This document shows positions 1 to 11,297 of a stretch of 64,000 bases of DNA, one piece after another. The stretch covers positions 1 to 64,000 of the forward strand of contig JAVHLK010000016.1 of NCBI GenBank assembly GCA_031082285.1, in the 5' to 3' direction. Positions within the stretch are counted from its first letter, which is position 1. Every line of letters begins with the position of its first letter. Below the pieces are notes generated by a model. It had not been told where the DNA came from, searched no databases, and worked only from the letters and a program-made list of their open reading frames with translations. Made by a program: the position numbers and the translations under genes. The stretch comes from Desulfomonilaceae bacterium (GTDB taxonomy: Bacteria > Desulfobacterota > Desulfomonilia > Desulfomonilales > Desulfomonilaceae).

Positions 1-57
1 GGACGGACATGTCTCCGTTTCGCGCTGAACCTGTGAAAGCAGAGGGACGGCTGAGTC

Positions 58-1164
58 ATGAAAATCATGCGGACCCCAAGGTCTATGGATCTACTCATCA
101 CGAGTAGGTGCAATCTTCGCTGCACATACTGCAGTCATTTTACCAGCGGAGCGGAGGTGGACGAAGACCTGACCACTGAAGAATGGTTGAAGTTTTTCCG
201 AGAACTGAATCGAGCCATGGTTCTGGAAGTTTGCCTTCAGGGAGGCGAACCGCTTATGCGACCCGACTTCAAGGACCTGATCGACGGCATCGTTCGGAAT
301 GGAATGAGATTCTCGATTCTTTCCAACGGTACCTTGATCACAGATGAGATTGCAAAGTTCCTTGCGTCCACACGCAGATGCAATTATGTGCAGATCTCCA
401 TCGACGGGTCGGTCGCGGAAACCCATGACATCTGCAGAGGTACCGGGAATTTCGATCGGGCCGTCAGAGGTCTCAAGCTTCTGCTGAAACATGACGTGCC
501 GGCCGCGGTCCGGGTCACGATTCATCGGGGAAACGTGACGGACTTGGACAATGTGGCTCGACTTCTGTTGGAGGACTTCGGCCTCCCTTCATTCGGTACC
601 AACTCAGCCTCCCACCTGGGACTGTGCAGAAAGAACGCGGACCAGGTCCAGTTGACGGCCGCGGAACGCGTCATGGCAATGAGGTCTCTTCTGGCTCTTG
701 CCGGCAAATACAACGGTCGCATATCGGCGACCGCAGGCCCTCTCGCGGAGGCCAGGGGATGGCGCGAGATGGAGAGAGCGCGCGAGCAAGGACTCGCCGA
801 ACTTCCTGGCCGAGGATTCCTGACCGGGTGCGGGGGACCGTTCGAACACATGGGCGTCCGAGCCGATGGCGTAATCGTACCATGTGTACAAATGCCGGAT
901 ATGGCGCTCGGCCGAATCCTCAAGGACGACCTTACCGAGATCTGGCAGGATCACCCGGAGCTGAACCGGTTTAGAGATCGTAGAGAGATTCCCCTCTCAT
1001 CATTTGAATTCTGCAAGGGATGCCCGTACGTTCCCTATTGCACGGGGAACTGTCCGGCGCTTTCTTACACGATTGTACACGACGCGTGGCATCCGAGCCC
1101 TGATTCATGCTTCAGGTCTTTTCTGCAAGCAGGAGGTGAGCTGCCGCCTGAAAAAGAACTCTGA
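58..1164 (+). CDS. scmE: Radical SAM/SPASM protein, ScmE-like (PqqE family)
   Basis: 368 aa. The radical SAM CxxxCxxC motif is visible at C18, C22 and C25 (RCNLRCTYC), followed by a GGEP-type motif near residue 62. The C-terminal third carries a SPASM-type cysteine set (CGGP near residue 258, then CKGCPYVPYC and further Cys to about 350) that would hold two auxiliary 4Fe-4S clusters. Enzymes of this kind modify ribosomal peptides (PqqE, AlbA) or tetrapyrroles (AhbC/D, NirJ). The RTPRSMD N-terminus and the tandem pairing with the next gene match my memory of ScmE of the SynChlorMet cassette, whose precursor peptide is unknown; this name is recall, not a search result. ATG 58 follows an AGAGGGACGG ribosome-binding region; an ATG nine bases on is possible. 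The start of the operon is outside the window. Confidence 0.75.
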   Translation: MKIMRTPRSMDLLITSRCNLRCTYCSHFTSGAEVDEDLTTEEWLKFFRELNRAMVLEVCLQGGEPLMRPDFKDLIDGIVRNGMRFSILSNGTLITDEIAKFLASTRRCNYVQISIDGSVAETHDICRGTGNFDRAVRGLKLLLKHDVPAAVRVTIHRGNVTDLDNVARLLLEDFGLPSFGTNSASHLGLCRKNADQVQLTAAERVMAMRSLLALAGKYNGRISATAGPLAEARGWREMERAREQGLAELPGRGFLTGCGGPFEHMGVRADGVIVPCVQMPDMALGRILKDDLTEIWQDHPELNRFRDRREIPLSSFEFCKGCPYVPYCTGNCPALSYTIVHDAWHPSPDSCFRSFLQAGGELPPEKEL

Positions 1165-1189
1165 ATCTCGCCGCACGGAGGAAACCGCC

Positions 1190-2323
1190 ATGAGTAAAGC
1201 CGAACAGAGTGCAAAACGTGAGTATCCATTGGGCACGCTCTATTTTTACCTGACCAAGGGCTGCAACCTGAGATGTCGACACTGCTGGATCACCCCCAAG
1301 TTTCAGGGTGAAGAAGAGACTCATCCATCCCTGCCGCCCGAGTTATTCGGATCCATCATAGAGGAGGCGAAACCTCTGGGACTCTCGTCGGTGAAATTGA
1401 CGGGAGGGGAGCCGCTCATTCATCCGCAGATCACGGAATTGCTGGATTACACAAGGACGGAAAAGATCCCTCTGGTAATGGAGACCAACGGAACGGCCTG
1501 CACGGCCGAAATTGCCCGGTCCATAGCGTCGTGCGAGCGTCCTTTTGTGTCGGTGAGTCTGGACTCCACCGACGCGGCGACCCACGAATGGGTCCGGGGG
1601 GTGAAAGGCTGTTTCGACGCGGCCTTGTCCGGGATCAAGAACCTCGTGGATGCCAAGTTACACCCTCAGATCATCATGACCGTGATGCGCCGAAATGTGA
1701 GTCAGGTGACTCCCATGGTTCGCCTTGCCGAATCCCTCGGCGCGGAGTCGGTGAAATTCAATGTCCTTCAGCCCACGGCGCGAGGAGAGCACCTGCATGA
1801 GACTCAGGAATCGCTCACGATAGAAGAACTGATTGAATTGGGCCGGTGGGTGGACACCGAGTTGAGCAAAACCACTAAGATGCGACTCATATTTGACTAT
1901 CCCATGGCCTTCCGTCCACTCGGGAAGATCTATAGTTCTAGAGCGGACGGTTGCGGAACGTGCGGCGTGCTGGGCATCCTTGGTGTTCTGGGCGACGGAA
2001 CCTACGCGTTGTGCGGTATCGGAGAAACGGTGCCGGAAATGGTGTTCGGTCGCGCGGGGATCGATCGGTTGGAGGACGTCTGGAAGCACAATCCCGTGTT
2101 GCAGGAGATTCGTGAAGGGATGCCGAAGGCATTCAAAGGGATCTGTGCGCGATGCCTCATGAGGCCCCGATGCCTGGGGAGCTGTCTCGCCCAGAATTAC
2201 TATTCCAATCATGACCTTTGGGCCCCGTTCTGGTTTTGCAAAGAAGCTTACGGCAAAGGCCTTTTCCCCGCCACTCGGCTGGCAGGTGAAGGACCGGATG
2301 ACAAGTCCGTCGTTGCGGCATGA
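1190..2323 (+). CDS. scmF: Radical SAM/SPASM protein, ScmF-like (PqqE family)
   Basis: 377 aa. CxxxCxxC is at C25, C29 and C32 (KGCNLRCRHC), GGEP follows near residue 70, and a Cys-rich SPASM tail runs from about residue 260 to 360 (CGTCG, CARCLMRPRC, CLAQNY). ATG 1190 is preceded by CACGGAGGAAACCGCC, a strong Shine-Dalgarno, so the longer frame opening at TTG 1004 inside the previous gene is rejected. The 25-base gap to the preceding radical SAM gene points to one transcript. The pair of dissimilar PqqE-like enzymes is the hallmark I remember for SynChlorMet ScmE/ScmF; a PqqD-like protein, a precursor peptide and other Scm proteins would be expected to the left. Substrate unknown. The next gene is convergent. 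Confidence 0.75.
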   Translation: MSKAEQSAKREYPLGTLYFYLTKGCNLRCRHCWITPKFQGEEETHPSLPPELFGSIIEEAKPLGLSSVKLTGGEPLIHPQITELLDYTRTEKIPLVMETNGTACTAEIARSIASCERPFVSVSLDSTDAATHEWVRGVKGCFDAALSGIKNLVDAKLHPQIIMTVMRRNVSQVTPMVRLAESLGAESVKFNVLQPTARGEHLHETQESLTIEELIELGRWVDTELSKTTKMRLIFDYPMAFRPLGKIYSSRADGCGTCGVLGILGVLGDGTYALCGIGETVPEMVFGRAGIDRLEDVWKHNPVLQEIREGMPKAFKGICARCLMRPRCLGSCLAQNYYSNHDLWAPFWFCKEAYGKGLFPATRLAGEGPDDKSVVAA

Positions 2324-10769: not shown

Positions 10770-11297
10770 TCTCCAATCGGGCGAACCGCCTTGACCGATA
10801 AGTCGCAACCGGGGGGAAAATTCGCCCGAGATCCGGGTCAAAGTCACCCCTCGGAAAAAGGATTTTCTGATAAAGACTGGGGAGAGTCCGGAGGACGGGC
10901 GGTCAGCCGCGGGAGCCTGGGAACGAGAAGGAAGGGGGTTTTCCGGCAAATTCCGCGTTCTCCCGGTATGGTACAAATAAGAAACAGACCGTTGTTACGC
11001 CATGCGGATCTGTTCAAAAAACCAACAACAGTTCCAGTCTTCGTCTTGGTCCCGATCCCCAGCACCGCACACAACCATCCGTAATCGCCTCTAAATTTCT
11101 GGTTAGTTGGTTTTTTGTACGAAACCTGCCTTCTCGTGAGGAACGTACGGACCATCACACATTCCGCCTCCGTGTCAACCCATTGATTTTACCTGTGAAA
11201 CCGTCTTCGTGGCCGTTCTCGGTTCGCCGGCACGGCCGTTGCATATCTGAAGAAAAAACCCATCGTGTCCCGCGCGGACACGACACGGAGATCGGCC
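10770..11297. other. Intergenic region with two inverted repeats
   Basis: 528 bases between two co-directional signalling operons. A 9-bp inverted repeat (10777-10785 with 10821-10829, TCGGGCGAA) follows the stop of the activator and may end transcription although no T-run follows. A perfect 12-bp inverted repeat CAAAAAACCAAC (11015-11026) / GTTGGTTTTTTG (11106-11117) encloses 79 bases. No convincing gene was found. Confidence 0.5.
11015..11117. repeat. 12-bp inverted repeat enclosing 79 bases
   Basis: CAAAAAACCAAC at 11015-11026 is the exact reverse complement of 11106-11117. It lies in the leader region of the seven-gene signalling run. It could be a long stem in the leader RNA, a protein-binding pair, or chance. 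Confidence 0.6.

Follow-up and report, generated by a model that had tools for sequence, protein, structure and literature searches.

Two tandem genes for dissimilar radical SAM enzymes stand at the left end of the DNA analysed here, and they raise the question of what these enzymes act on and where the other genes of their pathway are located. The window, i.e. the whole stretch that was analysed, comprises bases 1-64000 of contig C77 (68.9 kb) in a 5.6-Mb draft genome, which consists of 314 contigs and has an estimated contamination of 4.2%. Over the whole profile lengths, the first protein matches the NCBIfam model TIGR04250 (ScmE; 590.2 bits) and the second the model TIGR04251 (ScmF; 586.7 bits), the cut-off being 400 bits for each, and the runner-up families in NCBIfam (WgkB, mycofactocin, AhbD, NirJ, PqqE) reach at most 134 bits. 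Judged from their sequences, the genes at window positions 58-2323 are the ScmE/ScmF pair of the SynChlorMet (Scm) RiPP pathway. An earlier note had proposed this identity from the tandem arrangement, the 25-base spacing, and the presence of CxxxCxxC and SPASM cysteines in both proteins; the scores bear it out, and every one of these features is intact (Table 1).

Table 1 Features of the Scm pathway in the window and elsewhere in the same genome; positions without a contig or locus prefix refer to the window
Feature	Position	Strand	Basis
scmE, radical SAM/SPASM peptide maturase, 368 aa	58..1164	+	TIGR04250; predicted fold
ScmE CxxxCxxC (C18, C22, C25), radical SAM cluster	109..132	+	Sequence; invariant in 23/23 relatives
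ScmE SPASM cysteines C258, 276, 319, 322, 328, 332, 351	829..1110	+	PF13186, 43 bits; 23/23 relatives
scmF ribosome-binding-like site GGAGGA	1177..1182	+	Sequence
scmF, second radical SAM/SPASM peptide maturase, 377 aa	1190..2323	+	TIGR04251; predicted fold
ScmF CxxxCxxC (C25, C29, C32)	1262..1285	+	Sequence; invariant in 22/22 relatives
ScmF SPASM-type cysteines C258, 275, 319, 322, 328, 332, 350	1961..2239	+	Conserved in 22/22 relatives
ScmC (TIGR04249)	C253:31404-32261		232.9 bits, cut-off 125 (whole-genome profile search)
ScmD, PqqD-like (TIGR04248)	C254:5460-5705		130.8 bits, cut-off 100 (whole-genome profile search)
S26-type peptidase beside ScmD, 325 bases on	L006:6042-6743 (C254)		
ScmA precursor, 89 aa	C260:9253-9522	-	Own 23-precursor profile, E = 4e-6

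All radical SAM cysteines and all seven SPASM cysteines are invariant among the relatives of both enzymes, and the Pfam SPASM model gives no match on ScmF despite its seven conserved SPASM-type cysteines. The two genes are separated by 25 bases (1165-1189), and scmF starts with the ATG codon at 1190; a longer frame from a TTG codon at 1004 overlaps ScmE and is an unlikely start. The predicted folds are closest to peptide-modifying SPASM enzymes, namely SkfB, anSME, SuiB, CteB, and PqqE for the AlphaFold model of ScmE (pLDDT 91) and SuiB (best), SkfB, anSME, and PqqE for that of ScmF (pLDDT 88). A function in tetrapyrrole (AhbC/AhbD, NirJ) or cofactor synthesis has next to no probability: a superfamily likeness is evident from the scores of the AhbD model on ScmF (134 bits) and of the NirJ model on ScmE (113 bits), but both fall short of the Scm models by about 450 bits and come nowhere near their own cut-offs (500-650), and the genes linked to the pair in relatives are ScmA/ScmD, an exporter, and a peptidase instead. 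Family scores and neighbourhoods of relatives thus already refute this assignment, and the search for a best match among tetrapyrrole enzymes, which the earlier note had named as one test of its proposal, came out negative.

The same note had expected a ribosomal peptide pathway, had taken the pair for the right end of a cassette, and had placed a PqqD-like protein and the precursor upstream. The pathway is borne out, ScmD, ScmC, and an ScmA precursor are present in the genome, and ScmE and ScmF are real members of the Scm system, but the cassette is not intact: the PqqD-like protein and the precursor were found on contigs C254 and C260 between unrelated genes, and ScmC stands on C253 without other Scm genes. 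The Scm genes are scattered over at least four places of the genome, with ScmA on C260, ScmC on C253, ScmD together with an S26 peptidase on C254, and ScmE-ScmF on C77. In the known system, described by TIGR04248-TIGR04252, they form one cassette, whereas here ScmC, ScmD, ScmE, and ScmF all score above their curated cut-offs and are spread over four contigs. The second-best model for ScmD is the lasso-peptide PqqD (29 bits). A weak PqqD match at C144:31547-31735 (31 bits) was considered as an alternative partner and set aside, and TIGR04247, considered as a further Scm model, was discarded because it describes NosD.

Contig C77 itself, and not just the window, stops 57 bases left of ScmE, where the sequence is unassembled. 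The first 150 bases of C77 showed no overlap with the other contigs of the genome, and a second copy of ScmD or ScmA may lie in the unassembled stretch. To the right, ScmF is followed by a glycosyltransferase gene on the opposite strand and then by a PAS/sigma-54 activator, and therefore no further Scm genes are present on that side. The contig edge, which hides the left neighbours, the 314 contigs, and the contamination could suggest that the cassette is in truth compact, its apparent scatter being due to draft assembly or mis-binning or to a second copy that is missing beside C77. We regard this as unlikely, since the contigs that carry ScmA, ScmC, and ScmD are 36-39 kb long and place each of them between unrelated genes, a single copy of each was found above its cut-off in the whole-genome search, ScmD is 66% identical to a ScmD of the same family, ScmE falls into the clade of that family (support 97/93), and the same scatter is found in a relative, G403, whose chromosome is a single contig (see below). 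No repeat or mobile element common to the flanks of the scattered loci was detected, the sole match being a partial one of 23 bases between the scmD-S26 gap and window:10912-10934, and a shared element was rejected as the dispersal mechanism. Downstream of the lone ScmC, a HTH protein resembling the small subunit of phage terminases is encoded (L002:10452-11042), which may be a remnant of a mobile element, and genes for a GHMP kinase and for another radical SAM/SPASM protein lie a few genes away from ScmC (L002:14461-17542).

For comparison, 395 genomes of the phylum were searched, of which 27 contain a ScmF relative at E <= 1e-60 and 14 one above the cut-off. Close relatives of ScmE have as named hosts Desulfatirhabdium, Victivallales, Acidobacteriota, Chlorobium, and Aminicenantes. 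In most relatives the genes are compact, D-E-F being contiguous and ScmC and the S26 peptidase being located just downstream; E and F are paired in nearly all loci, and many loci contain in addition an ABC exporter or a NTP_transf_5 protein (families F2 and F4). In relatives, A, C, D, E, F, the S26 peptidase, the ABC exporter, and NTP_transf_5 are thus neighbours in one cassette. Two natural fusions support a physical partnership of their components, one joining ScmE and ScmF in a single protein of 734 aa (G406, L076:1103-3307) and the other joining the S26 peptidase and ScmC (G368 and an Acidobacteriota MAG; L048:3201-4949 and L055:10882-12510). The P-loop of ScmC and the SM...HR[VI] residues of the S26 peptidase are conserved.

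Within the family of the host, ScmE is present in 5 of 18 genomes and absent from 13. Two of these genomes are compact: in G405, D-E-F-A-C-S26 form one group with the exporter and NTP_transf_5 next to it, and the genome contains in addition a distant A-C pair and a lone A, and in G406 D, the E-F fusion, A, C, and S26 lie together. The arrangement in G403 is different. On its chromosome, a single contig of 6,500,104 bases, ScmE is located at 2.00 Mb and ScmD, adjoining NTP_transf_5, at 5.42 Mb; ScmC occurs twice, at 5.32 and 6.11 Mb, as does ScmA, at 4.42 and 6.11 Mb. The scatter is therefore not just a matter of draft assembly; it is real and probably derived. In G403, no ScmF turned up next to ScmE or around the remaining Scm loci, and E and F may therefore be separable. 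In the ScmE tree, the family forms one clade, in which ScmE of the window pairs with that of the compact G405 (95/84) and the scattered G403 and G404 group with the compact G406 (94/90). Provided that the ancestor was compact, this topology implies that the cassette was apparently dismantled at least twice in one family, the tree support being moderate and G404 being a draft; the ScmF tree was too poorly resolved to place the genome of the window. The fact that ScmD and the S26 peptidase still adjoin in the genome of the window, with 325 bases between them, would fit a loss of E-F-A-C from between. In both G403 and G404, ScmE lacks an adjoining ScmF and has the same gene neighbourhood (L073:9598-10701 and L075:7854-8966). 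The remote ScmA/ScmC genes of G403 and G405 stand beside huge FG-GAP/DUF4347 proteins of 1316 and 2011 aa (L096:8147-13809 and L100:7571-15525), which are 51% identical to each other and are possibly surface proteins linked to the peptide.

The lost clustering, the ScmE genes of G403 and G404 without an adjoining ScmF, and the absence of any ScmE from 13 of the 18 family genomes might also be taken as signs of decay, the scattered genes being relics and ScmE/ScmF no longer acting on ScmA. The odds are clearly against such a reading, in view of the catalytic cysteines, the kinase P-loop, the peptidase residues, and the six-Cys precursor, all of which are intact in the genome of the window, and of the several precursors each in G403 and G405, which suggest expansion rather than decay. 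We infer that the dispersed genes continue to cooperate, although genes separated in this way need not be co-regulated. The findings also indicate that separate loci can arise from a RiPP pathway by dismantling while all its active sites persist.

The small ORFs of the Scm loci of relatives constitute one precursor family. The ScmA of the window's genome (MHRNAKPKYEKPVLIPFDLSPVESQTPHCNPVGSVPSGWQCMDGGTASGKCQAGSAAYGAQCASGSVAAAKCQAGSAPGGRCDAGGAHL) has the leader motif YEKPVL and six Cys residues. The leader motif common to 32 precursors is YxxPxL, Y/WxxP being present in 31, and the core is a tandem repeat C-x-x-G-x-x-A-x(3-4)-C with a period of 10-11. Of 158 intervals between successive Cys residues, 110 measure 10 or 11. 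Among the 189 Cys residues, 169 are followed by Gly at position +3 (shuffle mean 45, maximum 65) and 89 by Ala at position +6 (shuffle mean 27); the shuffles assume independent peptides, though the precursors are related, and outside the motif they are very diverse. Among the reactive side chains in the core, just that of Cys is invariant, and not those of Lys, Trp, or Arg. The precursor had been called unknown before; NCBIfam does have a precursor model, TIGR04252, which misses the ScmA-like precursor found here (10.7 bits, cut-off 35) and gives chance-level matches only in the whole genome of the window. ScmA is recognised just by our own profile, which was built from 23 precursors, and the ScmA proteins beside intact cassettes (G368, G199, G405, Chlorobium) likewise fall below the TIGR04252 cut-off. 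ScmF relatives below the cut-off were observed near CxxG-repeat precursors (L024, L026, L028, L031, L032), and the system is therefore wider than the NCBIfam models. Two different ScmA precursors adjoin in one locus (L047:10579-10782 and 10888-11124), and contig C102 of G404 carries two on opposite strands (L102:1610-2809).

Very probably, ScmE and ScmF crosslink this small cysteine-repeat peptide. The radical SAM domain of ScmE starts near residue 6, leaving the enzyme therefore without a fused N-terminal recognition domain, and the likely carrier of the leader is ScmD. In the working model, the free-standing PqqD-like ScmD would bind the YEKPVL leader and present ScmA to ScmE and ScmF. Acting together, these two enzymes would tie every Cys by a short thioether crosslink to the Gly at i+3, so that small rings follow one another like a ladder along the CxxGxxA repeats. 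Phosphorylation of the peptide would fall to the HprK-like ScmC, and the S26 Ser-His peptidase, judged by its linkage to ScmD, may trim the peptide. Two further steps are suggested by cassettes of relatives, their genes not having been located in the genome of the window: decoration by the NTP_transf_5 nucleotidyltransferase and, from gene linkage, export by the ABC exporter.

The thioether ladder is proposed on geometry and analogy, because the CxxG spacing equals that of the i to i+3 sactionine rings Cys25-Ser28 and Cys31-Gly34 of streptosactin (PMC8172795) and because TrnC/TrnD provide a precedent for two-enzyme complexes of radical SAM enzymes (PMC12093266). The sactipeptide system of streptosactin (GggA/GggB) likewise combines a SPASM radical SAM enzyme with unnested rings from Cys to Gly or Ser at i+3 (PMC8172795), but it has one enzyme and two rings, whereas two enzymes, a separate PqqD-like carrier, and as a rule 2-9 repeats are found here; the StsB model gives 100.8 bits on ScmE, far from its cut-off of 625. 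Thuricin CD, the maturation of which also involves a dissimilar radical SAM pair acting on small precursors (PMC12093266), is a two-component antibiotic, and a ScmE/ScmF complex is suggested by the tandem genes and one fusion.

The nearest solved enzymes comprise both thioether formers (SkfB, CteB) and carbon-carbon bond formers (SuiB, PqqE), as far as predicted folds can tell, and the link may involve a residue other than Gly at +3. What points to a sactipeptide-type S-to-C-alpha thioether is the CxxG geometry and the likeness of the ScmE fold to SkfB and CteB. The same pathway with another chemistry, i.e. a carbon-carbon bond, a beta/gamma-carbon thioether as in ranthipeptides, or split roles with one enzyme bonding Cys to Gly and the other changing the Ala at Cys+6, is taken jointly a possible, though less than likely, alternative. 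The best fold match of ScmF to SuiB, the 125 bits of WgkB on ScmE, the enrichment of Ala at +6, and the persistence of two distinct enzymes in nearly all loci speak for it; against it stand the core with Cys as its one invariant reactive residue and the exact precedent for i to i+3 Cys-Gly geometry in streptosactin (PMC8172795), and a beta/gamma thioether at Gly is ruled out because Gly has no beta carbon. On balance we consider it probable, by a modest degree, that the locus belongs to a Scm RiPP pathway with scattered genes in which ScmE/ScmF make a Cys-Gly(+3) thioether ring ladder on ScmA.

For the later steps, phosphorylated lasso peptides (paeninodin, pseudomycoidin, BsfA) offer the closest parallels, sharing the YxxPxL leader, the PqqD-like RRE, the HprK-like kinase, the nucleotidyltransferase, and the ABC exporter (PMC8498205, PMC10368454). 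There, a HprK-type kinase with a PqqD-like partner phosphorylates the YxxPxL-leader precursor (PMC10368454), and in pseudomycoidin a nucleotidyltransferase puts hexose on the phosphate (PMC8498205); by analogy, ScmC and NTP_transf_5 would fit these roles. The Scm system differs in its core, which consists of Cys repeats and goes together with radical SAM enzymes; neither a lasso cyclase nor a B2 protease was recognised among the genes examined near Scm genes.

A literature search for SynChlorMet, the Scm names, and Desulfomonile RiPPs gave, among 5.4 million papers, none naming the Scm cassette, and to our knowledge no product of it is known. The Scm system is of a known kind with curated family models; what is new is the scatter of its genes, the grammar of the precursors, and the additional parts. 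The cassette gains a defined family of substrates that obey a strict grammar (CxxGxxA, period 10-11), a ring geometry that can be tested, and three further parts, i.e. the S26 peptidase, the ABC exporter, and the nucleotidyltransferase. RiPP mining restricted to the neighbourhood of the enzyme would miss such precursors. More tentatively, this could be a trans-acting dispersed system in which one ScmE/ScmF pair, or a single ScmE, serves several remote precursors, and in which long ladders of tandem i to i+3 Cys-Gly thioether rings would then be phosphorylated or phospho-glycosylated and displayed or exported; if true, this would be a peptide architecture not yet described. In the prochlorosins, a single modifying enzyme (ProcM) also serves many precursors per genome (PMC10783134), but by lanthionine chemistry, whereas in the Scm system the carrier, the kinase, and the enzymes are scattered too. 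In G271, the cassette at L042:7345-9309 encodes ScmC twice, along with two dissimilar Cys-rich peptides, of which one has 14 cysteines in irregular spacing.
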